NCBI RefSeq assembly: GCF_016808335.1
Contig: NC_053141.1
Location: forward strand, 27,943,581 to 28,007,580
Reading direction: 5' to 3'
From: Panicum virgatum
Taxonomy: Eukaryota; Streptophyta; Magnoliopsida; Poales; Poaceae
DNA: 64,000 nt
Shown: positions 32,248-63,445 of the stretch, piece by piece
Layout: each line of letters starts with the position of its first letter
Position numbering within the stretch: position 1 is the stretch's first letter
The notes under the pieces: model-generated
The model's database searches: none
What the model saw: the letters and a program-made list of their open reading frames with translations, nothing else
Told to the model about the DNA's origin: nothing
Program-made: the position numbers and the translations under genes

Positions 32248-32248
32248 A

Positions 32249-34522: not shown

Positions 34523-34604
34523 ATAACTGGTCTGAATATAAGCTGGATGAACTGGATCCACTTGTTGTTTGTTCACTGGTCTTTGAACTTTACCTAATCA
34601 AGCT

Positions 34605-40276: not shown

Positions 40277-43200
40277 TAGAGTCTGCCTCCGCACCGGGTC
40301 GAGTCGCACCGTGTCATCACTCCCAACCGAACCCGGCCGCCTCTCACTGACAGATGGGTGTGCCCAGTCATCCCACACCTTGGGCTCCTTTTCCCGTTTC
40401 GGCAAAGCAACGCACGAGCGACGAGCTGCCGCCGCACCAGAACAGCACCAACCCGACTCACCCGGCCAATCGCATGCACCAGACCGCCCTAGACACCCAC
40501 GCGGATGTCACCAACCCTTTCGTGGTGGACCCCGCCAGCCTATCGCCCTCGCCTTCCCCAGTTCGACCGCGAACGCGCTCCGGCAGAAACACAACAGCCT
40601 CCGACACAATCTCTGCCACGGCATGATATCGCTCCCTACTTTTGACACCAATTGAAGCACGGCATCCCGCTCGCTCTCGCGTCGTGGCCATGCAACCCCA
40701 GCCTGGAAGCCTTGGTCGCCGTCTGATCGAGCAACAACGAGATCAGCCGTCCTCCACACCTATGGCCGCGGCCGCCCTATAAAAGGGGAGAGGCCGGGAG
40801 CAGTAGGGTTCCAACCCAATCCGCCGCCGCTTCGGTGGCTTGCCCAACAACCTACCTGCCGTGCTAGAGAAGAGAAAGGAGGAGAGGAGGGAGGTAGAGA
40901 GAGGAGAGGCAGGAGGCAGTGAGACGAAGCTGGAGCACGCCAGAGTACCGTCCGTGGTCGCCAAAGCCGGACAAGCCGCCAGAGCTGCTCGGGACACCCA
41001 GATCGTGGGTGCTGTGTGGTACGACTACACCAATGCCGCACACTGCACCAACCTACCTTTGTTGATAATCGATGACAAGCCTGCAGTGTGCACCCAACCC
41101 CCCCCCCCCCACTGCACTAGCTCTGTGGCCGTAACACACTCGTCACCGAGGCATGCTGCCGTCGCGTTCCCGCACCGGGAAGCGCCGAGCGGAGTCTCGC
41201 TCACCACAGCACATGCCACGCATCCACGCACACACGAAACGTCGGCCGCCTTGCCATGCCGAGCTCTACAGCATGGAAACGCACGCGCCAAAGGGCCACG
41301 GGTGCCACACCCGCCATGGCCAGAGCACGGCCATGGCGAGGCCATCCAAGCTTCATCCACCGTGCGTCGCCATGGCGTGGGCTTTCCACACCACTCCGGC
41401 CACCTCGTGCTGTGAGGGTGAGTCGTCGAGACTCACCTGGTGACCGTGAACCTAGCCGCCTAGATGGATTAGAGAGAAAGGACCACCGGAAACTGATTTC
41501 TCCCGTCCGCACAAACGCCAGAGTTCCGTGGTGCCTCCCCGGTGCACGCGGACCCCGCCGTAGAAATTGGTCGCCGCCGTCTAGGCCATCAGCTCCGCGA
41601 GGATTCGAATCGAGGGAAGACAGGGCACTTTTGCCTCGGTTTGGTTTGTAGCAGTACTGCCACAGTCTGCCGACGGCGCGGCCCTGCCACCGCCGTGGCC
41701 ATCCTTGCCTAAGCACTATCCAGCCACCCTAGCAGCGAGCATCAACTCGCCGAGGCACGGAATAACCCGTAGAGCCCCCACGAGCCTTTGCCCTAAAGCC
41801 GAAGGGCCTCGCCATTGTAGCGCTACCGCACGCTGCTGCGATGTCGCTAACACCAGCCGCCGGAGACACCTAACCACTCGCTGCAGCCGCCCTAGCCCCA
41901 CGGAACCGCCACGGAGCCCTAGACCGCCCTTAGAGCCCTACAGGTCCACCGGAGATCGCGCGGGCGCAAGCTCGCCGCCGGCGGCACGCCACTGTGCGGA
42001 ACAGAGGAGCAGAGGAAAGTTGGAGAAAGGGAGGGGAGGCCGGTGCACCTAAACCACCATGAACCAGAGGGAGGAGAGAAGAAGTGGACGGTGTCCACCG
42101 CGAGCCGAGTCTGTGGCTCACGAGCCCGCACCAACCTGTCCACCGTACACCGAACCCCGTAGACCAGGGCCAAAGGAGTAGCCGCGCAGTGGAACCGGTG
42201 CACTGTGGACCTAAGAGAAAAAGGAGAAGGGTGCACACGGTGCACCATAGACCGAGTCAATGGTCTATAAGACTGCCCGCACTTGTCCACCATGCACCGC
42301 AACCCGTGGACCCGAGCCCGATTGGAGACCAGACCCACCACGTGGATCCACTGTAGCACGACACATGTCTGGGCCAGGCCAGCCCAACTCGGGCCAACCC
42401 GGCCTAATACCAGTCCACTTGGCCCATTACTGTTGACTAGGTCAATGCTGATGTCAGCACGATGTCAGCGGGACCCACCAGCCAGCCTTTGGAATACCAC
42501 CGTGGCGATGATGTCAGCATGGCGTCAGCTCAGCCTATCACAGACTGCCACATGTCTAGCTCTGATTAAACCAGCCTTTTATCTTTTTCAGAAAATGGTT
42601 TAAACTTCAGAAACTCATAGAAAATTCAAACGGGCCTTTGCTAGTATATATGATGCATGCATATACCTGAGCCTTATGCCTTGATTTAAACCCTTCATCA
42701 CCCAATTACCTAGCTACGCGCTCGCACTTATATATGCCTTCCTGCTTGCTTGCACTTTACTCCATCATACTTTTTATATAACCTTAGATGTACTATGGTG
42801 GAGGAATTAATTGGTAAAATGTGATAACAACTGGGGAGTGTGCTGGTTGAGTCTTGGGTGCGTGTGTAGTGAGGGTTGAGTCAACTGGACAGGATTTATG
42901 ACGAGTCATGAGACGAGTCTTGCCGAGGAGGATGTGACCTAGGCATTCCCGCTTTTGCTTACCTGTGGCGGGTACCTGTTTTGAGGAGTTCCCGGCTTGG
43001 ACTCTTGTGATGGGAGGAAGACCGGGGTGGAGGTGCTGTAGCAGTATGGGGAATCAGATTGCCCCCTTTGAGGAGATGTCATGTCCAGTCCTTCTAAGGA
43101 CTAGTATATCAGAGGGACTAGTATATCAGAGAACCGGCCCCTAGGAAAATGTCTCGTGCACACCACTCGTCCCCGATGGGTGGGGTGCGGATACCCTTCT

Positions 43201-43829
43201 AGTATGGACGGTGCCATTACTATTTGGATGAGAGTGGATAGTGTTAGGGGATGGACGGTTGCGGCCTCCATTCCCCGATTAGCGTGATGTCCATAGGCCC
43301 CACATCACGTTTCACAGACTCAGTGCCCCAGTGCACTGGAGTGATCTAGGCTGAGTGATATGGTGGCATCGAACCACTAGGAGGCCTTCGTTTTCGCCTA
43401 GGTGTTCATGCGCACTGATGACGGTGATCTTGTGGCTACAGGTGTACAAGCTATGCACAGTTATCAAATCAATACGTATTATCCTGCTTAAGGCATGGTC
43501 AAGATTTAGGCTTGGACTACTGGCAGGCACGGCCGGCCCTCGGGCCTGGACGACCGCCGGACATGTACCGGCCTTTCTCTTGTTTTCTTCCCTTGACCCA
43601 CGTGTCTCTGACTAATGAGATGAGTCCTTCTTTTCTCCCCTGGTTTCTGATACGGCTGTGAGCCCATGTGGTTGGGAGCCGTCTTTACCGCCTGAGTGTG
43701 AGAGTGTGTGCGGTGAGATGTGTTTGGGATGGGAGATGATGATATGATGAGGTATCCACCACTTAGGGTTTTCTTCATCACTCACCCTCTCTCCTCACCC
43801 CCCTCTCTCTCTCCTGCCCTCCACGCGAC
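40277..43829 (+). repeat. Unclassified LTR-like repeat sequence
   Basis: GC-rich sequence (40277-42420) with a TATA box at 40778-40785, followed by a long GC-rich leader-like stretch and then a less GC-rich part (42420-43829). This layout resembles the long LTRs at the left edge of the window: the 'aaactcatagaaaattcaaa' phrase at 42610 recalls about 2600. Open frames on both strands in 40840-42360 are compositional. I could not find LTR ends, so the limits are only those of neighbouring features. The last part (43760-43829) is a CT-rich tract beside the insertion site of the array. Confidence 0.35.
40778..40785 (+). promoter_or_regulatory. TATA box in LTR-like sequence
   Basis: TATAAAAG stands in a GC-rich context (GCCGCCC before, GGGAGAGGCC after), a strong core promoter by sequence. 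It probably belongs to an LTR rather than a host gene because no coding frame with normal composition follows. Confidence 0.45.
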
Positions 43830-43834
43830 CAGCG
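43830..43834. repeat. TSD CAGCG of the tandem LTR array (left copy)
   Basis: CAGCG precedes the first TGTAACGAAC and is repeated at 61482-61486 directly after the last LTR (GATCCTTACA). One 5-bp TSD flanks the whole 17.6 kb, so the array grew from a single LTR-element insertion. Confidence 0.93.
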
Positions 43835-44098
43835 TGTAACGAACATGGCACCATTGATGCCATTTCGAGTGATTTTGGTGATCGAATGACAACACAACAC
43901 TTGGACTAATATGATTGTTAAGATGATCATTATCAGGCTTTTAGGTTCAAGTGATGACAAAGAGAAAGAGAAGATAGGCGTAGCAAGGCCCGATGGACTG
44001 CCCCTACGGGGGTTCCGCTACCCGGTTAGCGGACGGGGGTCGAGGGGGAGCCGCCCCTCGCGGGTCTCACGGCTCTTCGGATCAGGAGCACCGGAAGA

Positions 44099-44482
44099 AC
44101 CGACGCCAGGGCATCGGAGCATCCGATGGTAGTCGGAAGAACCGACGCCTTGATACTTTGGTGCAGAAGGGAATCGAAGCCAAGTCAGCCTATAGGCACC
44201 GGTTGAACCGACGGTCCAAAATAGGGCATCGGTGCAATGGCCGTCCTTTGTACCAGAGACGATGTCAAGTGCCCAGAAGAAGTTTCTTCAGCACCGGTTC
44301 AACCGACGGTGCATCGGTGCATACCACCGGTGTAATGACGTCAGCATCCAGGAGAAGATTCTTTCAGCACCGGTTGAACCGGTGAGGCATCGGTGCATTC
44401 AATCGGTTCAACCGGTGGTCTCTGCGTCAGCTGTCAGGACTTCAACGGCTACTTCATGTTGTGAGTGACCGGATGAACCGAC
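44099..44482 (+). promoter_or_regulatory. Upstream motif cluster in array LTR: five ACCGAC and one TGACGTCA
   Basis: ACCGAC occurs at 44099, 44141, 44207, 44302 and 44477, and a palindromic TGACGTCA at 44336-44343, all within 470 bp upstream of the TATA box. ACCGAC is the core of the plant DRE/CRT element (DREB/CBF factors), and TGACGTCA is a bZIP-type site. The cluster sits in near-palindromic CCGGTTNAACCGG repeats. Function is inference from motif identity. Confidence 0.45.
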
Positions 44483-44568
44483 GCTACCCTGCCAAGAGGC
44501 ATCGGTTCTTCCGGTGGTAGCAGATTTTCAGCTGACCGTTGGAGCAACGGCTACAAGACTTGGTGGCC

Positions 44569-44576
44569 TATATATA
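44569..44576 (+). promoter_or_regulatory. TATA box of array LTR, unit 1 (seven copies in array)
   Basis: TATATATA in the context GTGGCC...CGCCTCACC. The same box lies 672 bp into each later unit: 47257, 49945, 52635, 55325, 58015 and 60705. Each LTR copy therefore retains a core promoter, and in units 1-6 transcripts would run into Y. Confidence 0.7.
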
Positions 44577-44885
44577 CGCCTCACCCCGTCCATTTGAAGT
44601 GTGCTGGAGTTGCTGAACATCCCAAACACACCCAAGAACATCTCCAACCACCATAGAGCTTCATTGTACATCATATAGGCTTAAGCACACTTGTGAGAGT
44701 GCTTAGTGCTTGTTTAGGGATTAGTTCTTGCGAGAGCTCCCTTGAGAGAAGTCTTGCTGCGGCAAGCAACTTGTGATCCGTCGTGTGACCCTCCGTCTTG
44801 GTGTGGAGTGGCAACGACACTTTGTGCGGGGGAAGAGGAGGCCCCCTCCTTGGTGGAAAAGCTCCGTAGTGGATTTCGGCCGGGT

Positions 44886-46584
44886 TAATTAGGCTTGTTA
44901 GATTCATCGCGCAAAGTTGCATCCATCTATGAAAAGATTTTGCAAGTCTTTGTAAGAGAACATGAACAAGAAGGGCCAAAAGAAGGGATTTTTCCAAGAC
45001 AAAAGCAGTGGTTGGTGTGGATTTGACCCAGTACCTTGTTTCTAAGCGAGAAAAGCGGCGAACTGATGATGAGATCGGCGATGCAGGGGTGGACATGGGC
45101 CCTGTGCGATCTTGGGGTGCAGAGCACCGGCGATGAGGACGGGCGCAGCTCGGCGGGTCGCCGCCGGTGCATGCGGATAACAGCTCGTGCACGCCCCCCA
45201 CTGCCTGCTCAACCAGCGCCACCCCCGCTGACTGGTCGCCGTTGGAGCTCAGGATTTTTTTACCACCACTCCACCAGAGCCGCAGCAACTACCGCCATCA
45301 CCCGATGAATATATTAGCAGTAGCATTAGCAGCAGCAGGAACAAGTTTTGACCCGTCGTTCACGCCGGCCGTGAGGATCCAGGGGTTCAACGTCGCCGCA
45401 TGCGGAGCACGCACTCCAATGGCGGCGACCACGTGCTGTCCGCCCGCGCGTGAGCGCGAGAGGCGATCAGAGCTCCAGTCGTACAGTTTTTGCCGACCGG
45501 CCGGCCCTCTTAGCTTTTTATTAACAGCCGATCCGATCAGAATAGGAAGGAGAGTTAGACAGATCTCATTGCGGGTACAACAGGCGGGTAGAATTAGGGG
45601 TGGTGCCAAAATAATTTGATTTTTGGCAGAAATATTTTCTAGCTCGCGATTTTTATGGGTCTAACCTGTTTTGGGTAAAAAAAGTTTTCAATTCTTTTTG
45701 ATTTATATATATATATAACTTGAAATAATAGCTGGATATATTGTTTCTATATAGAGGCTGAGATATTCATATTCTTTTAGCTAAAAAAATCTCATCAATC
45801 TAAAATCGGTGAAATTTGTCGATTCTTATTGGGTCACGTCACCATGCAGAGGCTCCTAAGACGCGGGAGAAGCACGCCTCCATCAACGCAGTGGACGTTT
45901 GTCCTCCCGCCGGCCGCCGAGGCTTGAGGAGATCACAGCCTTATCCCGTGCCCTCCGCTGTGTGGGCACGCTAGGCGCATGCAGGGGAGCTAGATGGGAT
46001 GCGCGCGTGGTGTTTGGGATGGATGCAAAAGGGCGCGGGTGAACGACGATGGCGAGCGTCGCTGGGCACGGGGCGGCGATGCAACTTTTTTTAGATTATA
46101 CAGTACAACTCAGACACTCACAATGCACTCACACTCACACCTCTATGAACACATACGCAAATCCTACCTCTATGAGTATCTTCGAAGACTGAGCTGGCAA
46201 ATCTTCGAGATTGACGAAGTCACCACAGGCATCTCGCTGTCGATAGAAACATCGCCTACCACTGAATGCACAACGCCATTAAATCTCAGAATATTCGCTC
46301 TCATAGGGGGACCTCAGGTGCTATCGAGACTCTTGTAACCACTAGACTACAGGCCCTTTCGCGGGCGGCGATGCAACTTGGTCGGGCAAGATCTCCTTGT
46401 CTCGGTCGGCTACTCAGCTTCCTCTCCAGAATTCAGCTTCCTCCTCTACTGCGATTGTTTGTTCCGTCCCTCTTCTTGATTTCCATGCCTAATTTTTTTT
46501 CCTACAATCTTGAATCACACTGTTTTTCAGATATCTGAATTGAATTGTCCAATTAGAGAAGGGATCGGATCTCACGCCGGTGCT
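44886..46584. other. Segment Y (first copy): foreign, partly GC-rich, origin unknown
   Basis: Y has an AT-moderate start (TAATTAGGCTTGTTAGATTC), a GC-rich gene-like part (about 45060-45620), an AT-rich part with a TA microsatellite (about 45703-45718), a second GC-rich part (45840-46070), a SINE (46088-46362) and a 3' part with an intron-acceptor-like TGTTTTTCAG (near 46520-46530). Open frames include 45167-45619 (+, 150 codons), 45609-45298 (-, 103 codons) and 45288-44671 (-, 205 codons, reaching into X). I recognise no domain. Their conservation between units only reflects DNA duplication. Y lacks a polypurine tract directly before the next LTR. Confidence 0.6.
46088..46362 (-). mobile_element. 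SINE, copy 1 (in Y1)
   Basis: Flanked by a perfect 17-bp TSD (GGGCGGCGATGCAACTT at 46071-46087 and 46363-46379). On the minus strand it begins near GGGCCTGTAGTCTAGTGG, an A-box-like tRNA-derived head, and ends TAATCTAAAAAAA. This fits a tRNA-derived plant SINE. The B-box region expected about 50 bases in (as kept at 63490-63503) is missing: GAGGTCC runs directly into CCCTATGAGAG. Pol III transcription is therefore unlikely. Confidence 0.85.
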
Positions 46585-49272
46585 TGTAACGAACATGGCA
46601 CCATTGATGCCATTTCGAGTGATTTTGGTGATCGAATGACAAACACAACACTTGGACTAATACGATTGTTAAGATGATCATTCTCAGGCTTTTAGGTTCA
46701 AGTGATGACAAAGAGAAAGAGAAGATAGGCGTAGCAAGGCCCGAAGGGCTGCCCCTACGGCTCTTCGGATCAGGAGCACAGGAAGAACCGACGCCAGGGC
46801 ATCGGAGCATCCGATGGTAGTCGGAAGAACCGACGCCTTGATACTTTGGTGCAGAAGGGAATCGAAGCCAAGTCAGCCTATAGGCACCGGTTGAACCGAC
46901 GGTCCAAAATAGGGCATCGGTGCAATGGCCGTCCTTTGTACCAGAGACGATGTCAAGTGCCCAGAAGAAGTTTCTTCAGCACCGGTTCAACCGACGGTGC
47001 ATCGGTGCATACCACCGGTGTAATGACGTCAGCATCCAGGAGAAGATTCTTTCAGCACCGGTTGAACCGGTGAGGCATCGGTGCATTCAATCGGTTCAAC
47101 CGGTGGTCTCTGCGTCAGCTGTCAGGACTTCAACGGCTACTTCATGTTGTGAGTGACCGGATGAACCGACGCTACCCTGCCAAGAGGCATCGGTTCTTCC
47201 GGTGGTAGCAGATTTTCAGCTGACCGTTGGAGCAACGGCTACAAGACTTGGTGGCCTATATATACGCCTCACCCCGTCCATTTGAAGTGTGCTGGAGTTG
47301 CTGAACATCCCAAACACACCCAAGAACATCTCCAACCACCATAGAGCTTCATTGTACATCATATAGGCTTAAGCACACTTGTGAGAGTGCTTAGTGCTTG
47401 TTTAGGGATTAGTTCTTGCGAGAGCTCCCTTGAGAGAAGTCTTGCTGCGGCAAGCAACTTGTGATCCGTCGTGTGACCCTCCGTCTTGGTGTGGAGTGGC
47501 AACGACACTTTGTGCGGGGGAAGAGGAGGCCCCCTCCTTGGTGGAAAAGCTCCGTAGTGGATTTCGGCCGGGTTAATTAGGCTTGTTAGATTCATCGCGC
47601 AAAGTTGCATCCATCTATGAAAAGATTTTGCAAGTCTTTGTAAGAGAACATGAACAAGAAGGGCCAAAAGAAGGGATTTTTCCAAGACAAAAGCAGTGGT
47701 TGGTGTGGATTTGACCCAGTACCTTGTTTCTAAGCGAGAAAAGCGGCGAACTGATGATGAGATCGGCGATGCAGGGGTGGACATGGGCCCTGTGCGATCT
47801 TGGGGTGCAGAGCACCGGCGATGAGGACGGGCGCAGCTCGGCGGGTCGCCGCCGGTGCATGCGGATAACAGCTCGTGCACGCCCCCCACTGCCTGCTCAA
47901 CCAGCGCCACCCCCGCTGACTGGTCGCCGTTGGAGCTCAGGATTTTTTTACCACCACTCCACCAGAGCCGCAGCAACTACCGCCATCACCCGATGAATAT
48001 ATTAGCAGTAGCATTAGCAGCAGCAGGAACAAGTTTTGACCCGTCGTTCACGCCGGCCGTGAGGATCCAGGGGTTCAACGTCGCCGCATGCGGAGCACGC
48101 ACTCCAATGGCGGCGACCACGTGCTGTCCGCCCGCGCGTGAGCGCGAGAGGCGATCAGAGCTCCAGTCGTACAGTTTTTGCCGACCGGCCGGCCCTCTTA
48201 GCTTTTTATTAACAGCCGATCCGATCAGAATAGGAAGGAGAGTTAGACAGATCTCATTGCGGGTACAACAGGCGGGTAGAATTAGGGGTGGTGCCAAAAT
48301 AATTTGATTTTTGGCAGAAATATTTTCTAGCTCGCGATTTTTATGGGTCTAACCTGTTTTGGGTAAAAAAAGTTTTCAATTCTTTTTGATTTATATATAT
48401 ATATAACTTGAAATAATAGCTGGATATATTGTTTCTATATAGAGGCTGAGATATTCATATTCTTTTAGCTAAAAAAATCTCATCAATCTAAAATCGGTGA
48501 AATTTGTCGATTCTTATTGGGTCACGTCACCATGCAGAGGCTCCTAAGACGCGGGAGAAGCACGCCTCCATCAACGCAGTGGACGTTTGTCCTCCCGCCG
48601 GCCGCCGAGGCTTGAGGAGATCACAGCCTTATCCCGTGCCCTCCGCTGTGTGGGCACGCTAGGCGCATGCAGGGGAGCTAGATGGGATGCGCGCGTGGTG
48701 TTTGGGATGGATGCAAAAGGGCGCGGGTGAACGACGATGGCGAGCGTCGCTGGGCACGGGGCGGCGATGCAACTTTTTTTTAGATTATACAGTACAACTC
48801 AGACACTCACAATGCACTCACACTCACACCTCTATGAACACATACGCAAATCCTACCTCTATGAGTATCTTCGAAGACTGAGCTGGCAAATCTTCGAGAT
48901 TGACGAAGTCACCACAGACATCTCGCTGTCGATAGAAACATCGCCTACCACTGAATGCACAACGCCATTAAATCTCAGAATATTCGCTCTCATAGGGGGA
49001 CCTCAGGTGCTATCGAGACTCTTGTAACCACTAGACTACAGGCCCTTTCGCGGGCGGCGATGCAACTTGGTCGGGCAAGATCTCCTTGTCTCGGTCGGCT
49101 ACTCAGCTTCCTCTCCAGAATTCAGCTTCCTCCTCTACTGCGATTGTTTGTTCCGTCCCTCTTCTTGATTTCCATGCCTAATTTTTTTCCTACAATCTTG
49201 AATCACACTGTTTTTCAGATATCTGAATTGAATTGTCCAATTAGAGAAGGGATCGGATCTCACGCCGGTGCT
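46585..49272 (+). repeat. Array unit 2 (X2 46585-47573, Y2 47574-49272)
   Basis: 2688 bp. It carries A at 46780 (shared only with unit 3) and a private A at 48918. Its Y has the shorter AT tract near 48394-48404, as in Y1. Confidence 0.93.
48776..49051 (-). mobile_element. SINE, copy 2 (in Y2)
   Basis: Same insertion as in Y1, duplicated with the unit. TSD at 48759-48775 and 49052-49068. One extra T in the tail and G to A at 48918. Confidence 0.85.
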
Positions 49273-51962
49273 TGTAACGAACATGGCACCATTGATGCCA
49301 TTTCGAGTGATTTTGGTGATCGAATGACAAACACAACACTTGGACTAATACGATTGTTAAGATGATCATTCTCAGGCTTTTAGGTTCAAGTGATGACAAA
49401 GAGAAAGAGAAGATAGGCGTAGCAAGGCCCGAAGGGCTGCCCCTACGGCTCTTCGGATCAGGAGCACAGGAAGAACCGACGCCAGGGCATCGGAGCATCC
49501 GATGGTAGTCGGAAGAACCGACGCCTTGATACTTTGGTGCAGAAGGGAATCGAAGCCAAGTCAGCCTATAGGCACCGGTTGAACCGACGGTCCAAAATAG
49601 GGCATCGGTGCAATGGCCGTCCTTTGTACCAGAGACGATGTCAAGTGCCCAGAAGAAGTTTCTTCAGCACCGGTTCAACCGACGGTGCATCGGTGCATAC
49701 CACCGGTGTAATGACGTCAGCATCCAGGAGAAGATTCTTTCAGCACCGGTTGAACCGGTGAGGCATCGGTGCATTCAATCGGTTCAACCGGTGGTCTCTG
49801 CGTCAGCTGTCAGGACTTCAACGGCTACTTCATGTTGTGAGTGACCGGATGAACCGACGCTACCCTGCCAAGAGGCATCGGTTCTTCCGGTGGTAGCAGA
49901 TTTTCAGCTGACCGTTGGAGCAACGGCTACAAGACTTGGTGGCCTATATATACGCCTCACCCCGTCCATTTGAAGTGTGCTGGAGTTGCTGAACATCCCA
50001 AACACACCCAAGAACATCTCCAACCACCATAGAGCTTCATTGTACATCATATAGGCTTAAGCACACTTGTGAGAGTGCTTAGTGCTTGTTTAGGGATTAG
50101 TTCTTGCGAGAGCTCCCTTGAGAGAAGTCTTGCTGCGGCAAGCAACTTGTGATCCGTCGTGTGACCCTCCGTCTTGGTGTGGAGTGGCAACGACACTTTG
50201 TGCGGGGGAAGAGGAGGCCCCCTCCTTGGTGGAAAAGCTCCGTAGTGGATTTCGGCCGGGTTAATTAGGCTTGTTAGATTCATCGCGCAAAGTTGCATCC
50301 ATCTATGAAAAGATTTTGCAAGTCTTTGTAAGAGAACATGAACAAGAAGGGCCAAAAGAAGGGATTTTTCCAAGACAAAAGCAGTGGTTGGTGTGGATTT
50401 GACCCAGTACCTTGTTTCTAAGCGAGAAAAGCGGCGAACTGATGATGAGATCGGCGATGCAGGGGTGGACATGGGCCCTGTGCGATCTTGGGGTGCAGAG
50501 CACCGGCGATGAGGACGGGCGCAGCTCGGCGGGTCGCCGCCGGTGCATGCGGATAACAGCTCGTGCACGCCCCCCACTGCCTGCTCAACCAGCGCCACCC
50601 CCGCTGACTGGTCGCCGTTGGAGCTCAGGATTTTTTTACCACCACTCCACCAGAGCCGCAGCAACTACCGCCATCACCCGATGAATATATTAGCAGTAGC
50701 ATTAGCAGCAGCAGGAACAAGTTTTGACCCGTCGTTCACGCCGGCCGTGAGGATCCAGGGGTTCAACGTCGCCGCATGCGGAGCACGCACTCCAATGGCG
50801 GCGACCACGTGCTGTCCGCCCGCGCGTGAGCGCGAGAGGCGATCAGAGCTCCAGTCGTACAGTTTTTGCCGACCGGCCGGCCCTCTTAGCTTTTTATTAA
50901 CAGCCGATCCGATCAGAATAGGAAGGAGAGTTAGACAGATCTCATTGCGGGTACAACAGGCGGGTAGAATTAGGGGTGGTGCCAAAATAATTTGATTTTT
51001 GGCAGAAATATTTTCTAGCTCGCGATTTTTATGGGTCTAACCTGTTTTGGGTAAAAAAAGTTTTCAATTCTTTTCGATTTATATATATATATATAACTTG
51101 AAATAATAGCTGGATATATTGTTTCTATATAGAGGCTGAGATATTCATATTCTTTTAGCTAAAAAAATCTCATCAATCTAAAATCGGTGAAATTTGTCAA
51201 TTCTTATTGGGTCACGTCACCATGCAGAGGCTCCTAAGACGCGGGAGAAGCACGCCTCCATCAACGCAGTGGACGTTTGTCCTCCCGCCGGCCGCCGAGG
51301 CTTGAGGAGATCACAGCCTTATCCCGTGCCCTCCGCTGTGTGGGCACGCTAGGCGCATGCAGGGGAGCTAGATGGGATGCGCGCGTGGTGTTTGGGATGG
51401 ATGCAAAAGGGCGCGGGTGAACGACGATGGCGAGCGTCGCTGGGCACGGGGCGGCGATGCAACTTTTTTTTAGATTATACAGTACAACTTAGACACTCAC
51501 AATGCACTCACACTCACACCTCTATGAACACATACGCAAATCCTACCTCTATGAGTATCTTCGAAGACTGAGCTGGCAAATCTTCGAGATTGACGAAGTC
51601 ACCACAGGCATCTCGCTGTCGATAGAAACATCGCCTACCACTGAATGCACAACGCCATTAAATCTCAGAATATTCGCTCTCATAGGGGGACCTCAGGTGC
51701 TATCGAGACTCTTGTAACCACTAGACTACAGGCCCTTTCGCGGGCGGCGATGCAACTTGGTCGGGCAAGATCTCCTTGTCTCGGTCGGCTACTCAGCTTC
51801 CTCTCCAGAATTCAGCTTCCTCCTCTACTGCGATTGTTTGTTCCGTCCCTCTTCTTGATTTCCATGCCTAATTTTTTTCCTACAATCTTGAATCACACTG
51901 TTTTTCAGATATCTGAATTGAATTGTCCAATTAGAGAAGGGATCGGATCTCACGCCGGTGCT
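49273..51962 (+). repeat. Array unit 3 (X3 49273-50261, Y3 50262-51962), chimeric
   Basis: 2690 bp. X3 shares the unit-2 variant (A at 49468), but Y3 carries the variants of units 4-6: an AT tract 2 bp longer near 51080-51095, TTTTCGATTT for TTTTTGATTT, GTCAATTC for GTCGATTC, and AACTTAGAC for AACTCAGAC. The switch lies within the unit, as expected of a crossover product. Confidence 0.9.
51466..51741 (-). mobile_element. SINE, copy 3 (in Y3)
   Basis: Same insertion carried by array duplication. TSD at 51449-51465 and 51742-51758. Confidence 0.85.
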
Positions 51963-54652
51963 TGTAACGAACATGGCACCATTGATGCCATTTCGAGTGA
52001 TTTTGGTGATCGAATGACAAACACAACACTTGGACTAATACGATTGTTAAGATGATCATTCTCAGGCTTTTAGGTTCAAGTGATGACAAAGAGAAAGAGA
52101 AGATAGGCGTAGCAAGGCCCGAAGGGCTGCCCCTACGGCTCTTCGGATCAGGAGCACCGGAAGAACCGACGCCAGGGCATCGGAGCATCCGATGGTAGTC
52201 GGAAGAACCGACGCCTTGATACTTTGGTGCAGAAGGGAATCGAAGCCAAGTCAGCCTATAGGCACCGGTTGAACCGACGGTCCAAAATAGGGCATCAGTG
52301 CAATGGCCGTCCTTTGTACCAGAGACGATGTCAAGTGCCCAGAAGAAGTTTCTTCAGCACCGGTTCAACCGACGGTGCATCGGTGCATACCACCGGTGTA
52401 ATGACGTCAGCATCCAGGAGAAGATTCTTTCAGCACCGGTTGAACCGGTGAGGCATCGGTGCATTCAATCGGTTCAACCGGTGGTCTCTGCGTCAGCTGT
52501 CAGGACTTCAACGGCTACTTCATGTTGTGAGTGACCGGATGAACCGACGCTACCCTGCCAAGAGGCATCGGTTCTTCCGGTGGTAGCAGATTTTCAGCTG
52601 ACCGTTGGAGCAACGGCTACAAGACTTGGTGGCCTATATATACGCCTCACCCCGTCCATTTGAAGTGTGCTGGAGTTGCTGAACATCCCAAACACACCCA
52701 AGAACATCTCCAACCACCATAGAGCTTCATTGTACATCATATAGGCTTAAGCACACTTGTGAGAGTGCTTAGTGCTTGTTTAGGGATTAGTTCTTGCGAG
52801 AGCTCCCTTGAGAGAAGTCTTGCTGCGGCAAGCAACTTGTGATCCGTCGTGTGACCCTCCGTCTTGGTGTGGAGTGGCAACGACACTTTGTGCGGGGGAA
52901 GAGGAGGCCCCCTCCTTGGTGGAAAAGCTCCGTAGTGGATTTCGGCCGGGTTAATTAGGCTTGTTAGATTCATCGCGCAAAGTTGCATCCATCTATGAAA
53001 AGATTTTGCAAGTCTTTGTAAGAGAACATGAACAAGAAGGGCCAAAAGAAGGGATTTTTCCAAGACAAAAGCAGTGGTTGGTGTGGATTTGACCCAGTAC
53101 CTTGTTTCTAAGCGAGAAAAGCGGCGAACTGATGATGAGATCGGCGATGCAGGGGTGGACATGGGCCCTGTGCGATCTTGGGGTGCAGAGCACCGGCGAT
53201 GAGGACGGGCGCAGCTCGGCGGGTCGCCGCCGGTGCATGCGGATAACAGCTCGTGCACGCCCCCCACTGCCTGCTCAACCAGCGCCACCCCCGCTGACTG
53301 GTCGCCGTTGGAGCTCAGGAATTTTTTACCACCACTCCACCAGAGCCGCAGCAACTACCGCCATCACCCGATGAATATATTAGCAGTAGCATTAGCAGCA
53401 GCAGGAACAAGTTTTGACCCGTCGTTCACGCCGGCCGTGAGGATCCAGGGGTTCAACGTCGCCGCATGCGGAGCACGCACTCCAATGGCGGCGACCACGT
53501 GCTGTCCGCCCGCGCGTGAGCGCGAGAGGCGATCAGAGCTCCAGTCGTACAGTTTTTGCCGACCGGCCGGCCCTCTTAGCTTTTTATTAACAGCCGATCC
53601 GATCAGAATAGGAAGGAGAGTTAGACAGATCTCATTGCGGGTACAACAGGCGGGTAGAATTAGGGGTGGTGCCAAAATAATTTGATTTTTGGCAGAAATA
53701 TTTTCTAGCTCGCGATTTTTATGGGTCTAACCTGTTTTGGGTAAAAAAAGTTTTCAATTCTTTTCGATTTATATATATATATATAACTTGAAATAATAGC
53801 TGGATATATTGTTTCTATATAGAGGCTGAGATATTCATATTCTTTTATCTAAAAAAATCTCATCAATCTAAAATCGGTGAAATTTGTCAATTCTTATTGG
53901 GTCACGTCACCATGCAGAGGCTCCTAAGACGCGGGAGAAGCACGCCTCCATCAACGCAGTGGACGTTTGTCCTCCCGCCGGCCGCCGAGGCTTGAGGAGA
54001 TCACAGCCTTATCCCGTGCCCTCCGCTGTGTGGGCACGCTAGGCGCATGCAGGGGAGCTAGATGGGATGCGCGCGTGGTGTTTGGGATGGATGCAAAAGG
54101 GCGCGGGTGAACGACGATGGCGAGCGTCGCTGGGCACGGGGCGGCGATGCAACTTTTTTTTAGATTATACAGTACAACTTAGACACTCACAATGCACTCA
54201 CACTCACACCTCTATGAACACATACGCAAATCCTACCTCTATGAGTATCTTCGAAGACTGAGCTGGCAAATCTTCGAGATTGACGAAGTCACCACAGGCA
54301 TCTCGCTGTCGATAGAAACATCGCCTACCACTGAATGCACAACGCCATTAAATCTCAGAATATTCGCTCTCATAGGGGGACCTCAGGTGCTATCGAGACT
54401 CTTGTAACCACTAGACTACAGGCCCTTTCGCGGGCGGCGATGCAACTTGGTCGGGCAAGATCTCCTTGTCTCGGTCGGCTACTCAGCTTCCTCTCCAGAA
54501 TTCAGCTTCCTCCTCTACTGCGATTGTTTGTTCCGTCCCTCTTCTTGATTTCCATGCCTAATTTTTTTCCTACAATCTTGAATCACACTGTTTTTCAGAT
54601 ATCTGAATTGAATTGTCCAATTAGAGAAGGGATCGGATCTCACGCCGGTGCT
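51963..54652 (+). repeat. Array unit 4 (X4 51963-52951, Y4 52952-54652)
   Basis: 2690 bp. It carries three variants found only here and in unit 6: A at 52297, A at 53321 and T at 53848. Confidence 0.93.
54156..54431 (-). mobile_element. SINE, copy 4 (in Y4)
   Basis: Same insertion carried by array duplication. TSD at 54139-54155 and 54432-54448. Confidence 0.85.
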
Positions 54653-57342
54653 TGTAACGAACATGGCACCATTGATGCCATTTCGAGTGATTTTGGTGAT
54701 CGAATGACAAACACAACACTTGGACTAATACGATTGTTAAGATGATCATTCTCAGGCTTTTAGGTTCAAGTGATGACAAAGAGAAAGAGAAGATAGGCGT
54801 AGCAAGGCCCGAAGGGCTGCCCCTACGGCTCTTCGGATCAGGAGCACCGGAAGAACCGACGCCAGGGCATCGGAGCATCCGATGGTAGTCGGAAGAACCG
54901 ACGCCTTGATACTTTGGTGCAGAAGGGAATCGAAGCCAAGTCAGCCTATAGGCACCGGTTGAACCGACGGTCCAAAATAGGGCATCGGTGCAATGGCCGT
55001 CCTTTGTACCAGAGACGATGTCAAGTGCCCAGAAGAAGTTTCTTCAGCACCGGTTCAACCGACGGTGCATCGGTGCATACCACCGGTGTAATGACGTCAG
55101 CATCCAGGAGAAGATTCTTTCAGCACCGGTTGAACCGGTGAGGCATCGGTGCATTCAATCGGTTCAACCGGTGGTCTCTGCGTCAGCTGTCAGGACTTCA
55201 ACGGCTACTTCATGTTGTGAGTGACCGGATGAACCGACGCTACCCTGCCAAGAGGCATCGGTTCTTCCGGTGGTAGCAGATTTTCAGCTGACCGTTGGAG
55301 CAACGGCTACAAGACTTGGTGGCCTATATATACGCCTCACCCCGTCCATTTGAAGTGTGCTGGAGTTGCTGAACATCCCAAACACACCCAAGAACATCTC
55401 CAACCACCATAGAGCTTCATTGTACATCATATAGGCTTAAGCACACTTGTGAGAGTGCTTAGTGCTTGTTTAGGGATTAGTTCTTGCGAGAGCTCCCTTG
55501 AGAGAAGTCTTGCTGCGGCAAGCAACTTGTGATCCGTCGTGTGACCCTCCGTCTTGGTGTGGAGTGGCAACGACACTTTGTGCGGGGGAAGAGGAGGCCC
55601 CCTCCTTGGTGGAAAAGCTCCGTAGTGGATTTCGGCCGGGTTAATTAGGCTTGTTAGATTCATCGCGCAAAGTTGCATCCATCTATGAAAAGATTTTGCA
55701 AGTCTTTGTAAGAGAACATGAACAAGAAGGGCCAAAAGAAGGGATTTTTCCAAGACAAAAGCAGTGGTTGGTGTGGATTTGACCCAGTACCTTGTTTCTA
55801 AGCGAGAAAAGCGGCGAACTGATGATGAGATCGGCGATGCAGGGGTGGACATGGGCCCTGTGCGATCTTGGGGTGCAGAGCACCGGCGATGAGGACGGGC
55901 GCAGCTCGGCGGGTCGCCGCCGGTGCATGCGGATAACAGCTCGTGCACGCCCCCCACTGCCTGCTCAACCAGCGCCACCCCCGCTGACTGGTCGCCGTTG
56001 GAGCTCAGGATTTTTTTACCACCACTCCACCAGAGCCGCAGCAACTACCGCCATCACCCGATGAATATATTAGCAGTAGCATTAGCAGCAGCAGGAACAA
56101 GTTTTGACCCGTCGTTCACGCCGGCCGTGAGGATCCAGGGGTTCAACGTCGCCGCATGCGGAGCACGCACTCCAATGGCGGCGACCACGTGCTGTCCGCC
56201 CGCGCGTGAGCGCGAGAGGCGATCAGAGCTCCAGTCGTACAGTTTTTGCCGACCGGCCGGCCCTCTTAGCTTTTTATTAACAGCCGATCCGATCAGAATA
56301 GGAAGGAGAGTTAGACAGATCTCATTGCGGGTACAACAGGCGGGTAGAATTAGGGGTGGTGCCAAAATAATTTGATTTTTGGCAGAAATATTTTCTAGCT
56401 CGCGATTTTTATGGGTCTAACCTGTTTTGGGTAAAAAAAGTTTTCAATTCTTTTCGATTTATATATATATATATAACTTGAAATAATAGCTGGATATATT
56501 GTTTCTATATAGAGGCTGAGATATTCATATTCTTTTAGCTAAAAAAATCTCATCAATCTAAAATCGGTGAAATTTGTCAATTCTTATTGGGTCACGTCAC
56601 CATGCAGAGGCTCCTAAGACGCGGGAGAAGCACGCCTCCATCAACGCAGTGGACGTTTGTCCTCCCGCCGGCCGCCGAGGCTTGAGGAGATCACAGCCTT
56701 ATCCCGTGCCCTCCGCTGTGTGGGCACGCTAGGCGCATGCAGGGGAGCTAGATGGGATGCGCGCGTGGTGTTTGGGATGGATGCAAAAGGGCGCGGGTGA
56801 ACGACGATGGCGAGCGTCGCTGGGCACGGGGCGGCGATGCAACTTTTTTTTAGATTATACAGTACAACTTAGACACTCACAATGCACTCACACTCACACC
56901 TCTATGAACACATACGCAAATCCTACCTCTATGAGTATCTTCGAAGACTGAGCTGGCAAATCTTCGAGATTGACGAAGTCACCACAGGCATCTCGCTGTC
57001 GATAGAAACATCGCCTACCACTGAATGCACAACGCCATTAAATCTCAGAATATTCGCTCTCATAGGGGGACCTCAGGTGCTATCGAGACTCTTGTAACCA
57101 CTAGACTACAGGCCCTTTCGCGGGCGGCGATGCAACTTGGTCGGGCAAGATCTCCTTGTCTCGGTCGGCTACTCAGCTTCCTCTCCAGAATTCAGCTTCC
57201 TCCTCTACTGCGATTGTTTGTTCCGTCCCTCTTCTTGATTTCCATGCCTAATTTTTTTCCTACAATCTTGAATCACACTGTTTTTCAGATATCTGAATTG
57301 AATTGTCCAATTAGAGAAGGGATCGGATCTCACGCCGGTGCT
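54653..57342 (+). repeat. Array unit 5 (X5 54653-55641, Y5 55642-57342)
   Basis: 2690 bp. It lacks the three unit-4/6 variants. With unit 4 it forms the dimer that reappears 5380 bp downstream. Confidence 0.93.
56846..57121 (-). mobile_element. SINE, copy 5 (in Y5)
   Basis: Same insertion carried by array duplication. TSD at 56829-56845 and 57122-57138. Confidence 0.85.
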
Positions 57343-60032
57343 TGTAACGAACATGGCACCATTGATGTCATTTCGAGTGATTTTGGTGATCGAATGACAA
57401 ACACAACACTTGGACTAATACGATTGTTAAGATGATCATTCTCAGGCTTTTAGGTTCAAGTGATGACAAAGAGAAAGAGAAGATAGGCGTAGCAAGGCCC
57501 GAAGGGCTGCCCCTACGGCTCTTCGGATCAGGAGCACCGGAAGAACCGACGCCAGGGCATCGGAGCATCCGATGGTAGTCGGAAGAACCGACGCCTTGAT
57601 ACTTTGGTGCAGAAGGGAATCGAAGCCAAGTCAGCCTATAGGCACCGGTTGAACCGACGGTCCAAAATAGGGCATCAGTGCAATGGCCGTCCTTTGTACC
57701 AGAGACGATGTCAAGTGCCCAGAAGAAGTTTCTTCAGCACCGGTTCAACCGACGGTGCATCGGTGCATACCACCGGTGTAATGACGTCAGCATCCAGGAG
57801 AAGATTCTTTCAGCACCGGTTGAACCGGTGAGGCATCGGTGCATTCAATCGGTTCAACCGGTGGTCTCTGCGTCAGCTGTCAGGACTTCAACGGCTACTT
57901 CATGTTGTGAGTGACCGGATGAACCGACGCTACCCTGCCAAGAGGCATCGGTTCTTCCGGTGGTAGCAGATTTTCAGCTGACCGTTGGAGCAACGGCTAC
58001 AAGACTTGGTGGCCTATATATACGCCTCACCCCGTCCATTTGAAGTGTGCTGGAGTTGCTGAACATCCCAAACACACCCAAGAACATCTCCAACCACCAT
58101 AGAGCTTCATTGTACATCATATAGGCTTAAGCACACTTGTGAGAGTGCTTAGTGCTTGTTTAGGGATTAGTTCTTGCGAGAGCTCCCTTGAGAGAAGTCT
58201 TGCTGCGGCAAGCAACTTGTGATCCGTCGTGTGACCCTCCGTCTTGGTGTGGAGTGGCAACGACACTTTGTGCGGGGGAAGAGGAGGCCCCCTCCTTGGT
58301 GGAAAAGCTCCGTAGTGGATTTCGGCCGGGTTAATTAGGCTTGTTAGATTCATCGCGCAAAGTTGCATCCATCTATGAAAAGATTTTGCAAGTCTTTGTA
58401 AGAGAACATGAACAAGAAGGGCCAAAAGAAGGGATTTTTCCAAGACAAAAGCAGTGGTTGGTGTGGATTTGACCCAGTACCTTGTTTCTAAGCGAGAAAA
58501 GCGGCGAACTGATGATGAGATCGGCGATGCAGGGGTGGACATGGGCCCTGTGCGATCTTGGGGTGCAGAGCACCGGCGATGAGGACGGGCGCAGCTCGGC
58601 GGGTCGCCGCCGGTGCATGCGGATAACAGCTCGTGCACGCCCCCCACTGCCTGCTCAACCAGCGCCACCCCCGCTGACTGGTCGCCGTTGGAGCTCAGGA
58701 ATTTTTTACCACCACTCCACCAGAGCCGCAGCAACTACCGCCATCACCCGATGAATATATTAGCAGTAGCATTAGCAGCAGCAGGAACAAGTTTTGACCC
58801 GTCGTTCACGCCGGCCGTGAGGATCCAGGGGTTCAACGTCGCCGCATGCGGAGCACGCACTCCAATGGCGGCGACCACGTGCTGTCCGCCCGCGCGTGAG
58901 CGCGAGAGGCGATCAGAGCTCCAGTCGTACAGTTTTTGCCGACCGGCCGGCCCTCTTAGCTTTTTATTAACAGCCGATCCGATCAGAATAGGAAGGAGAG
59001 TTAGACAGATCTCATTGCGGGTACAACAGGCGGGTAGAATTAGGGGTGGTGCCAAAATAATTTGATTTTTGGCAGAAATATTTTCTAGCTCGCGATTTTT
59101 ATGGGTCTAACCTGTTTTGGGTAAAAAAAGTTTTCAATTCTTTTCGATTTATATATATATATATAACTTGAAATAATAGCTGGATATATTGTTTCTATAT
59201 AGAGGCTGAGATATTCATATTCTTTTATCTAAAAAAATCTCATCAATCTAAAATCGGTGAAATTTGTCAATTCTTATTGGGTCACGTCACCATGCAGAGG
59301 CTCCTAAGACGCGGGAGAAGCACGCCTCCATCAACGCAGTGGACGTTTGTCCTCCCGCCGGCCGCCGAGGCTTGAGGAGATCACAGCCTTATCCCGTGCC
59401 CTCCGCTGTGTGGGCACGCTAGGCGCATGCAGGGGAGCTAGATGGGATGCGCGCGTGGTGTTTGGGATGGATGCAAAAGGGCGCGGGTGAACGACGATGG
59501 CGAGCGTCGCTGGGCACGGGGCGGCGATGCAACTTTTTTTTAGATTATACAGTACAACTTAGACACTCACAATGCACTCACACTCACACCTCTATGAACA
59601 CATACGCAAATCCTACCTCTATGAGTATCTTCGAAGACTGAGCTGGCAAATCTTCGAGATTGACGAAGTCACCACAGGCATCTCGCTGTCGATAGAAACA
59701 TCGCCTACCACTGAATGCACAACGCCATTAAATCTCAGAATATTCGCTCTCATAGGGGGACCTCAGGTGCTATCGAGACTCTTGTAACCACTAGACTACA
59801 GGCCCTTTCGCGGGCGGCGATGCAACTTGGTCGGGCAAGATCTCCTTGTCTCGGTCGGCTACTCAGCTTCCTCTCCAGAATTCAGCTTCCTCCTCTACTG
59901 CGATTGTTTGTTCCGTCCCTCTTCTTGATTTCCATGCCTAATTTTTTTCCTACAATCTTGAATCACACTGTTTTTCAGATATCTGAATTGAATTGTCCAA
60001 TTAGAGAAGGGATCGGATCTCACGCCGGTGCT
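57343..60032 (+). repeat. Array unit 6 (X6 57343-58331, Y6 58332-60032)
   Basis: 2690 bp. It has the unit-4 variants at exactly +5380 (57677, 58701, 59228) plus a private T at 57368. Confidence 0.93.
59536..59811 (-). mobile_element. SINE, copy 6 (in Y6)
   Basis: Same insertion carried by array duplication. TSD at 59519-59535 and 59812-59828. Confidence 0.85.
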
Positions 60033-61481
60033 TGTAACGAACATGGCACCATTGATGCCATTTCGAGTGATTTTGGTGATCGAATGACAAACACAACACT
60101 TGGACTAATACGATTGTTAAGATGATCATTCTCAGGCTTTTAGGTTCAAGTGATGACAAAGAGAAAGAGAAGATAGGCGTAGCAAGGCCCGAAGGGCTGC
60201 CCCTACGGCTCTTCGGATCAGGAGCACCGGAAGAACCGACGCCAGGGCATCGGAGCATCCGATGGTAGTCGGAAGAACCGACGCCTTGATACTTTGGTGC
60301 AGAAGGGAATCGAAGCCAAGTCAGCCTATAGGCACCGGTTGAACCGACGGTCCAAAATAGGGCATCGGTGCAATGGCCGTCCTTTGTACCAGAGACGATG
60401 TCAAGTGCCCAGAAGAAGTTTCTTCAGCACCGGTTCAACCGACGGTGCATCGGTGCATACCACCGGTGTAATGACGTCAGCATCCAGGAGAAGATTCTTT
60501 CAGCACCGGTTGAACCGGTGAGGCATCGGTGCATTCAATCGGTTCAACCGGTGGTCTCTGCGTCAGCTGTCAGGACTTCAACGGCTACTTCATGTTGTGA
60601 GTGACCGGATGAACCGACGCTACCCTGCCAAGAGGCATCGGTTCTTCCGGTGGTAGCAGATTTTCAGCTGACCGTTGGAGCAACGGCTACAAGACTTGGT
60701 GGCCTATATATACGCCTCACCCCGTCCATTTGAAGTGTGCTGGAGTTGCTGAACATCCCAAACACACCCAAGAACATCTCCAACCACCATAGAGCTTCAT
60801 TGTACATCATATAGGCTTAAGCACACTTGTGAGAGTGCTTAGTGCTTGTTTAGGGATTAGTTCTTGCGAGAGCTCCCTTGAGAGAAGTCATGCTGCGGCA
60901 AGCAACTTGTGATCCGTCGTGTGACCCTCCGTCTTGGTGTGGAGTGGCAACGACACTTTGTGCGGGGGAAGAGGAGGCCCCCTCCTTGGTGGAAAAGCTC
61001 CGTAGTGGATTTCGGCCGGGTGACCGAGAGAGACGGTGGCGGTGCACTAGACTCGGTGTCTTGTGCGCACTTGCCTTTGCTTGCCGGCATCGCCTTGGTG
61101 GCGTAGTGCAAGACGGTGATCGGAAGAGCCTCGGTGTCCCGTGGACGTAGGCGTTTGTGCCGAACCACGTTACATGACCGTGTCTACTCGGGAGTTTGCA
61201 TCCCTCTTGCACTTATCTCTTTACCTACCTTATTACGTTTCCGCATTTACTCTTTCTTGTGTGCCTTTACTTTCTTAGTTAATTTGATTAGGATTGGCTA
61301 TAGGTTGCAAGTTTTTAGGGGTAAGTAGAGAGTTGCATAGATAAACCTTAGTCATAACTAGCATGTGTAGGACGTGTTAGGTTTATCGTTTGCAAGTAGA
61401 TTGAGCCCTAGGTTAAAAAGCGATTAGCGACCCTATTCACCCCCTCCCCCTCTAGGGTCGGACACCCCGGTGATCCTTACA
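60033..61481 (+). repeat. Array unit 7: complete LTR (X7 60033-61021, Z 61022-61481)
   Basis: This is the only full LTR, 1449 bp, TGTAACGAAC to GATCCTTACA. X7 carries the shared 63-bp deletion and a private A at 60890 (TCATGC for TCTTGC). Z, about 460 bp, is the LTR 3' part that Y replaces in the other units. The CAGCG TSD follows. Confidence 0.93.
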
Positions 61482-61953
61482 CAGCGGAGACGGCGGCCCG
61501 TGCGGCGGCGCCGCCCCGCCCCCTCCCTCCCTCGACGGCATCTCCGAGCGGCGGATCTGGCCACCCCCGGCCGGCGCGGAGCGGAGGGGCGGATCCGGCC
61601 ACCCCCGGCCGGTGCGGAGCGGAGGGGCGGCGCGGCAGGCGGAGGTCAGCCAGCGGCCAACGTGAGGGCGGCCAGCGGCGGCGGCGCCCCTGGCAAGCGG
61701 CGGGTGGCGGTGGCGCAAGCGGCGGGCGGGCGGCCGGCAGCGCGGTATCAGATGGGCTCACTGGGCCTAGATGGGCTCGGCGGGCTCACCTGTTTTTTTT
61801 ATTTTTTTATTAACAGAGGCGTGCACAAGAACACCTCTAAAAATGTTCCATTTATAGTGACTATAGCTCTGAGGCATTTCCGAAAAGCATCTCCGAAAAT
61901 CGAAAATCGAAAATTGAAAATGCACGCCTCCGAAAATAAAAATTATAGTAGTG
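61482..61953. mobile_element. CACTA transposon right end with GC-rich interior
   Basis: The stretch ends AATTATAGTAGTG at 61953, the inverse of CACTACTATAATT, a normal CACTA terminus. Subterminal GAGGCGTGCA (61816-61825) faces TGCACGCCTC (61921-61930), and CTCCGAAAAT-type repeats lie between. The first 280 bp is GC-rich and was continuous with the CT-rich sequence left of 43834 before the array inserted. The left terminus of this CACTA is not found. Confidence 0.6.
61553..61628. repeat. 38-bp tandem duplication
   Basis: 61553-61590 and 61591-61628 are two copies of a GC-rich 38-mer (starts GGATCTGGCCACCCCCGG and GGATCCGGCCACCCCCGG) with two differences. Confidence 0.85.
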
Positions 61954-62152: not shown

Positions 62153-62275
<123 letters not shown>

Positions 62276-62738
62276 AGAGAGGGGATGAGAGGAAGAAAAA
62301 GAAGATAGAGGGTATTTTGATCCATAAATTTTGAGAAACATGTCGAAGGGGTAAATAGTATCTTTCGAAGATTTTTAAAATTGTAATGATATGGTTCCAA
62401 TATAACGAATTGTAATGGTAGATTAGTGAACTCAGACAATTATAATGACATAGATCTAATTAACCCAAGAATAAAACCTCCAATTTTAGGCATCCCATGC
62501 GCAGCTGCCTCTTAACTTCTATGAGTGAAATTTCATGGACCGAGCCATGTACATAGCTGGTGATACATCCGACTGGCGGCAGGCCTGGCCAGGAGTGGGG
62601 TGGGCGACCGCTCCTCCCCTCTCTTCTTTTTCCTTACTTTCTCTTCTTCTTCCTCCCCCCTTCCTTTTTATTCTTTCATCCTAAAAATGAAGGAGAGCTT
62701 AGGGAGGTATCCGTTGATCCTAGGGAAATAGGAGGGGG
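62276..62738. other. No gene recognised
   Basis: AT-rich sequence, then a pyrimidine-rich tract (62600-62680). No open frame or element end is seen. Confidence 0.5.
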
Positions 62739-63182
62739 CACTACAACAGAAAGGGGATGTTGTCCCGGTTGACAACCCCCTTTAGTCCCGGTTGACTAAA
62801 GCCTGAGACCTTTAGTCCCGGTTGCTACAACCGGGACCAAAGGGTCCGCGACGTGAAAAAAAGTTTGTATTTTATGGGAATCGAACCCAAGAGCTGTTGT
62901 CTCAAGTATAGCTTTTTTACCATCCCAGCTATACCGCGCATGCGACCTATTATGGGATGTTTTCTCTTTGTACTAACCTGTAGAGAGCCCTTTGGTCCCG
63001 GTTGGTGCTACCAACCAGGATAAAAAAAAGGGTCTTTGGTATGGGTTGGTGCCAAGATAAAAGATCCTTCCACTCTCCACGAGCCCGGCTAGTTGTTGGA
63101 CTTGGGGTAAAAGCCTCCATTGATCCCTGAGTCCAACGACGGCCAGAATAAATGCAAGTATCAAAGGCCAATTCTGTAGTAG
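62739..63182. mobile_element. CACTA-type MITE with TTTAGTCCCGGTTG subterminal repeats
   Basis: Starts CACTACAACAGAAAGG at 62739. The motif TTTAGTCCCGGTTG or its inverse occurs at about 62780, 62810, 62830 and 62990. The right end is near TTCTGTAGTAGTTG (63182), which inverts to CAACTACTACAGAA, a slightly damaged CACTA end. It is about 444 bp with no coding capacity, and is a common grass family by its subterminal repeat. Confidence 0.7.
62854..62941 (-). promoter_or_regulatory. Internal tRNA-like Pol III promoter boxes inside the MITE
   Basis: On the minus strand, TAGCTGGGATGG (62931-62920) fits an A box, and GGTTCGATTCC (62887-62877) is a perfect B box with a TGGG/CCCA T-stem. A run of seven T (62860-62854) follows as a terminator. 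A D-arm-like TAGC...GCTA can be drawn. A proper five-pair anticodon stem cannot, so it is not a functional tRNA. Confidence 0.5.
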
Positions 63183-63445
63183 TTGAGGACTTGAAGCACA
63201 GGGTTCAGGACGCTCAAACGTCAGGGTTCAGGAAGCTAGAGCGTCCGGTGGCCGCGTGCGTGACGACTCGTGAGCAAGTGGAGCTTGCATCGCTGCAAAA
63301 AGAGGACATGCCACTAATCAATACAAAAAAACATCCGTGGAGCATCTCAAAAAAAAAGAAAGAAAAAAGGATGAACATCCAATTCAAACACAGTAACACA
63401 CCTGGATAGTTCTGCACGACTGCATCAAGTCCTATCGTTTTTGGC
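63183..63445. other. No gene recognised
   Basis: Mixed sequence with a purine run (63348-63371). Nothing is supported. Confidence 0.5.

Follow-up and report, generated by a model that had tools for sequence, protein, structure and literature searches.

We analysed a 64,000-nucleotide stretch of the switchgrass (Panicum virgatum) genome, referred to here as the window (C6:27943581-28007580, where C6 is contig NC_053141.1 of a 1,129,937,113-bp assembly in 627 contigs), in which a truncated long terminal repeat (LTR) of a retrotransposon alternates with a spacer. The array consists of seven LTR portions (X) and six spacers (Y), arranged head-to-tail, and ends in one complete LTR. It occupies a single target site, its spacer is host DNA, and its LTR sequence is of two types. 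The best explanation, which we consider somewhat probable, is that one LTR (LTR A) recombined with a second LTR (LTR B) lying beside a copy of Y, and that the product then grew by unequal exchange.

The X copies start, to the base, at 43835, 46585, 49273, 51963, 54653, 57343 and 60033 (n = 7), and units 1-6, each an X followed by a Y, measure 2750, 2688, 2690, 2690, 2690 and 2690 bp. The seventh unit, a complete LTR of 1449 bp, reads TGTAAC...CTTACA and ends at 61481. CAGCG stands outside both array ends, at 43830-43834 and 61482-61486, and the array ends thereby carry the TG...CA termini and 5-bp target duplication of the local LTR family. A preliminary description, made from the sequence alone, had given the X starts, their spacing and the restriction of the full LTR to the last copy correctly to the base, as well as CAGCG at both ends. 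Comparison of the array with shifted copies of itself gave 99.66-99.88% identity over 817 to 14266 bp. Each unit contains a single open reading frame of 200 amino acids (aa) or more, a 205-aa frame on the minus strand that starts with TTG; it crosses the X-Y seam, and a reading of Y as a gene was put aside. Neither Rfam, at gathering thresholds, nor ARAGORN returned a match anywhere in the window, and a viral-contig scan with the LTR start gave 0 matches. The features of the array are as follows.

43830-43834, no strand: left target-site copy CAGCG; an array-free duplicate of the flanks has a single CAGCA
43835-44069, plus: start of unit 1, commoner LTR type including a 63-bp block
44070-44885, plus: remainder of unit 1's X; units 2-7 differ from it by 0-1 substitution (817 sites)
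44886-46584, plus: Y of unit 1, host DNA derived from a locus resembling C6:28414727-28416494
46088-46362, minus: SINE-like element (short interspersed nuclear element) in Y, present in each Y, with flanking 17-bp direct repeats
46585-49272, plus: unit 2, X then Y
49273-51962, plus: unit 3, X then Y
51963-54652, plus: unit 4, X then Y
54653-57342, plus: unit 5, X then Y; a single substitution separates it from unit 3
57343-60032, plus: unit 6, X then Y; a single substitution separates it from unit 4
60033-61481, plus: unit 7, complete LTR
61482-61486, no strand: right target-site copy CAGCG

Target site and flanking duplication

The flanks of the array are duplicated on the same chromosome about 0.64 Mb away, at C6:27.33-27.36 Mb (C6:27332000-27356054), where window positions 26056-33613, 39540-43833 and 62221-64000 are matched at 98-99% identity. 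The duplicate lacks the whole array: the left flank match ends at 43833 and the right resumes at 61482, with a 4-base overlap, and one target copy, CAGCA, is found where the array has CAGCG. This counterpart supports the single target site proposed in the preliminary description. Substitutions between the array flanks and the duplicate number 18/1850 on the left, 7/261 at 61482-61742 and 16/1729 at 62261-63990, with 34/2433 and 68/7557 in two further flank stretches. The duplicate could be a paralogue, from segmental duplication, or a second allele left unpruned. With 1.3e-8 substitutions assumed per site and year, the flank duplication would date to 0.35-0.38 million years (My) ago. The left flank also has two inverted copies with 91-93% identity, at C6:27.44 and 28.07 Mb. 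Within the window, a 5.9-kb segment at 33614-39539 is without a counterpart in the duplicate block; its join overlaps by 3 bases, and no inverted ends are obvious.

Origin of the spacer and the two LTR types

A genome search with Y, in which the best 40 of 2755 first-look candidates were scored, placed full-length Y at seven positions among the scored matches; six of these are the array copies, and the seventh lies at C6:28414727-28416494. This parent locus lies about 0.41 Mb downstream of the array on the same chromosome, and there Y continues as host sequence with no LTR. The six array copies and one parental copy agree with the local amplification suggested in the preliminary description. 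Outside its SINE-like part, Y differs from the parent at 21-22 of 1403-1404 sites, and within that part at 14-15 of 261 sites; 92 bp near the parent's left end are absent from array Y in the two aligned unit copies inspected, and there are smaller indels besides. The element at 46088-46362 lies between 17-bp direct repeats (46071-46087 and 46363-46379), has relatives elsewhere at 83-86% identity, and is SINE-like on the minus strand when read from its tRNA-like end. Judged by these comparisons, Y is host DNA with a SINE-like element inside. Partial relatives of Y with 82-87% identity, one piece inverted, were seen at C5:60060214-60060987 and C14:69581055-69581648.

The seams of Y are informative about how it came to adjoin the LTR. 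At the right end, the parent reads GGTGCT/TCTTAG and the array GGTGCT/TGTAAC, the latter continuing with the first LTR base, while the left seam from X into Y has about one shared base. The last bases of Y contain no polypurine tract, and a tRNA-Met-type primer site had no match with up to 2 mismatches within the array. The spacer of this array is thus not the internal domain with primer site and polypurine tract that marks LTR-sharing tandem retrotransposons, and an origin of Y as a retrotransposon interior was rejected on the evidence of the host parent locus and the lack of a polypurine tract. Because the end of Y carries no such tract, the Y-LTR junction instead resembles LTR integration into a copy of the Y locus.

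For the LTR, the best 40 of 8171 candidates in the genome were scored; 32 matches elsewhere were listed and 20 of them were read. The insertions read numbered 17: three full elements and 14 solo LTRs. All of the solo LTRs lie between identical 5-bp target copies, and the outer target copies of the full elements match too. The polypurine tract and primer binding site beside the LTRs are identical across these full elements (3/3). The start of unit 1 stands apart from those of units 2-7 by 4 substitutions in 171-172 sites (5 where unit 6 is compared) and a one-base indel; it also includes a 63-bp block absent from units 2-7. The first 178 bp of unit 1 are 96-97% identical to other copies, and its first 235 bp represent the commoner LTR type. 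In the variable LTR block, GTCTCAGGGCAGCGCCCTGAAAGCTCTTCGATTC is the reading of the longer relatives, CCTACGGCTCTTCGGATC that of units 2-7 and GTCTCACGGCTCTTCGGATC that of unit 1, whose join GTCTCA/CGGCTC falls at 44069/44070. A 25-mer over this join was found at one place in the genome; two further matches carry 3 mismatches and diverge on the left.

The type found in units 2-7 also occurs outside the array. An LTR at C6:28440386 (L072), 24 kb from the Y parent, has 43994A, 43997G and the 63-bp loss, as do units 2-7, and an LTR at C10:10400175 has the 63-bp loss and GGATC in common with them. If both outside LTRs inherited it, the 63-bp loss is older than the array; repeated loss is the alternative. 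Its origin by ACGG slippage inside the array was set aside, given the equal loss in the two outside LTRs, though it may have recurred. In 20 relatives (L033-L052), LTR positions ~170-250 show many different losses, and this GC-rich block seems deletion-prone. The body of X is of one origin, since a marker at 44400-44401 is present in 7/7 units and was found nowhere else. Substitutions within X amount to 4/172 at the start against 1/817 in the rest (Fisher p = 0.004, sites treated as independent), which concentrates the difference at the X start.

Growth and founding of the array

Variants among the units record how the array grew. Polarized by the parent Y locus and the 20 LTR relatives, the derived Y substitutions 45699 and 45821 are common to units 1 and 2, whereas units 3-6 are united by the derived base at 46111 and an inserted TA. 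Units 4 and 6 have in common the derived bases at 44231 and 45255 and retain the parental base at 45780. Substitution counts are 6 between units 1 and 2, 4 between 2 and 3, 4 between 3 and 4, 3 between 4 and 5, 4 between 5 and 6, and 8 between 1 and 3. Units 3 and 5, and likewise 4 and 6, are one substitution apart, compared with 3-8 for neighbours, and this closeness of alternate units points to a two-unit exchange step. Marker 44092, shared by units 2 and 3, is in conflict with four of the Y markers, as is 45780 with two; these conflicts indicate exchange or conversion between units, with recurrent change at single sites as the alternative. Amplification in place is well supported, with unequal exchange, including a two-unit step, as its probable course, and the pattern of shared variants agrees with the growth by exchange between X parts that the preliminary description had envisaged. 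At the rate given above, the last growth step would date to ~0.014 My and the split of the Y types to ~0.07 My, figures that depend on 1-3 substitutions.

We propose that the founder arose by template switching between two LTRs. An LTR element would have inserted at CAGCG and remained as a solo-type LTR, LTR A, a state common among the insertions read (14/17). LTR B would have lain directly after Y, in another haplotype or in a copy of the Y locus ~0.41 Mb downstream. Repair or replication would then have left LTR A at 44885 and entered Y with ~1 shared base. Copying would have run through Y as far as LTR B, whose homology to LTR A would have carried it back into a second LTR A copy, on the sister or homologue, upstream of the point of exit. 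The product would be X-Y-XZ within a single target-copy pair, Y having ~0.8 kb of LTR A to either side; if the LTR A body does stand on both sides, two copies of LTR A took part. The duplicated X arms could subsequently pair out of register, giving six Y and seven X, with one clear two-unit step. The empty duplicate site, the LTR-free parent of Y, the missing polypurine tract, the traits that units 2-7 share with an independent LTR, the join of unit 1 and the location of the Y parent 0.41 Mb from the array within a 1.13-Gb genome count in favour of this explanation, which in its template-switch form needs one event. The sequences themselves show the single target site, the derivation of Y from host DNA, the two LTR types and the relations among units, and the presence of LTR B beside Y and the template switch are inferred from them.

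Several observations weigh against this reading. LTR B was not found beside Y: a search with the right flank of Y led to the LTR-free locus and weaker partial relatives, in a genome that, if the assembly is AP13 v5, represents one haplotype of an outbred plant. L072 is, from its sequence, kin to the LTR of units 2-7 and not its parent: two marks of those units, an extra A at 43890 and a C at 43912, are missing from it, and it differs in other ways. The 3' end of L072 is very different in sequence, so that either LTR B would have been chimeric or the X body would have come from LTR A; the change-over would lie somewhere after 44081. The divergence at the X start does not differ significantly from that of the left flank (18/1850; p = 0.11) or of all flanks (p = 0.11). 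Finally, unit 1 could be no recombinant but a minor-type copy that escaped the deletion, the 63-bp block lying between two ACGG copies, or a later conversion tract from a minor-type LTR could mimic two origins.

Four other explanations were weighed against recombination between LTR A and LTR B. The preliminary description envisaged a single X-Y-XZ insertion, with its 5' LTR end and interior replaced by Y, that was then amplified, its LTRs diverging later or being converted over a tract. One pair of target copies is what this predicts, and the difference of unit 1 is small (4/171) and not significantly above the 18/1850 of the flanks (p = 0.11). It is disfavoured by the finding that Y, itself host DNA, ends exactly at the first LTR base with no polypurine tract, which under arbitrary replacement would happen by chance only. 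The two bases and the identical deletion of units 2-7, moreover, match an independent LTR and not unit 1, and the differences cluster at the X start (4/172 against 1/817; p = 0.004). We regard such an origin as unlikely. The same founder would also result if LTR A and LTR B underwent an ectopic crossover, duplicating the interval between them, and a large deletion then joined the X of LTR A to Y, with amplification as proposed above. The linkage of Y and array is accounted for in this way, at the cost of two events, one of them a deletion of ~0.4 Mb, and we find the sequence of events quite unlikely.

A circle or rolling-circle multimer that combined Y with part of LTR B and entered LTR A by homologous recombination would yield head-to-tail units within one target-copy pair and an end-joined X-Y seam, and circles of satellite repeats are reported in plants (PMC2543021). 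This route would require a chimeric LTR B carrying the common-type X body; in the independent minor-type LTRs the 3' end is a very different sequence. It does not predict the 0.41-Mb nearness of the Y parent, and a multimer formed in one step starts uniform, yet nested variants are shared among the units, possibly through later change; a circle is in our judgement distinctly unlikely. An assembly artefact, with one or two units expanded by misassembly, might be suspected from the 99.7-99.9% identity of the units. Every pair among the six full units nevertheless differs by at least 1 and up to 11 substitutions. AP13 v5, if it is the source assembly, was built from deep PacBio long reads with short-read polishing, comprises 1,125.2 Mb in 626 contigs and was pruned to one haplotype (PMC7886653). 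We therefore consider an artefact very improbable.

Neighbourhood, significance and known systems

The surroundings of the array contain other traces of mobile and repetitive DNA. Near its right flank, at 61936-61953 on the minus strand, the window reads CACTACTATAATTTTTAT, which resembles the end of a CACTA-type transposon; no second such end was detected in the window with up to 3 mismatches allowed. A direct repeat of 1465 bp with 96.4% identity and LTR-pair-like spacing is formed by 16086-17550 and 23911-25372. Retrotransposon coding pieces lie at 6183-7770 (plus strand) and 28511-29116 (minus strand), with reverse transcriptase, RNase H and retroviral polymerase SH3-like domains among them. 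A pure AT dinucleotide run of 49.5 copies occupies 62155-62253, 0.7 kb from the array.

The earliest steps in the birth of a satellite are usually erased. At this locus the empty site, the spacer parent, the joins between two LTR types and the record of growth can be read together, and the founder models (circle, crossover with deletion, template switching) become testable at a single locus in an outbred species with resequenced accessions. That LTR-guided template switching founds new tandem repeats in general is a tentative idea, which we think rather more likely to be wrong than right. If it were true, one event would both capture host DNA and yield the flanking duplication required for expansion, and dispersed LTRs could seed satellites holding any nearby host sequence. 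The preliminary description spoke of the birth of a satellite from a retrotransposon. The anatomy fits that phrase; seven X and six Y at one locus, however, are not yet a satellite in the sense of a long, many-copy array.

The closest known systems are the maize repeats CRM1TR and CRM4TR (PMC3648361). As in the present array, their unit starts in the LTR, a founder of the form LTR-spacer-LTR has been proposed to arise by illegitimate recombination, and growth is attributed to gene conversion or unequal exchange between LTR parts. The array has LTR sequence inside head-to-tail units, as CRM1TR-type tandem repeats do. In the maize repeats, however, the whole unit derives from the element (LTR plus untranslated region) and the location is centromeric or pericentromeric. 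The switchgrass unit does not come entirely from a parent element, Y being host DNA; it joins two LTR types to a host-DNA spacer, and its empty site and spacer parent are visible.

Other systems resemble the array in part. In Cassandra arrays and LTR-sharing BARE1 elements, LTRs and spacers alternate through LTR recombination in up to 12 units; there, the spacer is the element's own internal domain and the LTRs are whole (PMC7215508), whereas here X is cut and the spacer is non-retroviral. Satellite-like arrays in Lathyrus sativus likewise originate in LTR retrotransposons, from a seed described as a tandem repeat within the element (PMC7004042) and not, as proposed here, a recombination product of two LTRs and host DNA. 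In a tomato satellite derived from ribosomal DNA (rDNA), an inserted LTR retrotransposon is the proposed site of unequal recombination and host DNA forms part of the unit, although that host DNA was a pre-existing rDNA tandem array (PMC2679016). Foreign filler DNA is copied during break repair in grasses (PMC4423477), and repair-mediated capture of proximal DNA in vertebrates similarly copies linked DNA, but as intra-chromosomal duplications of up to 619 bp and, in the abstract, without amplification (PMC2671141). A literature search, with most subscription papers outside its scope, found no founder of two LTRs and host DNA described together with its empty site and parent locus, and we claim no priority. 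The tandem repeat derived from an LTR is a known kind, of which the proposed two-LTR founder with host DNA is a variant.
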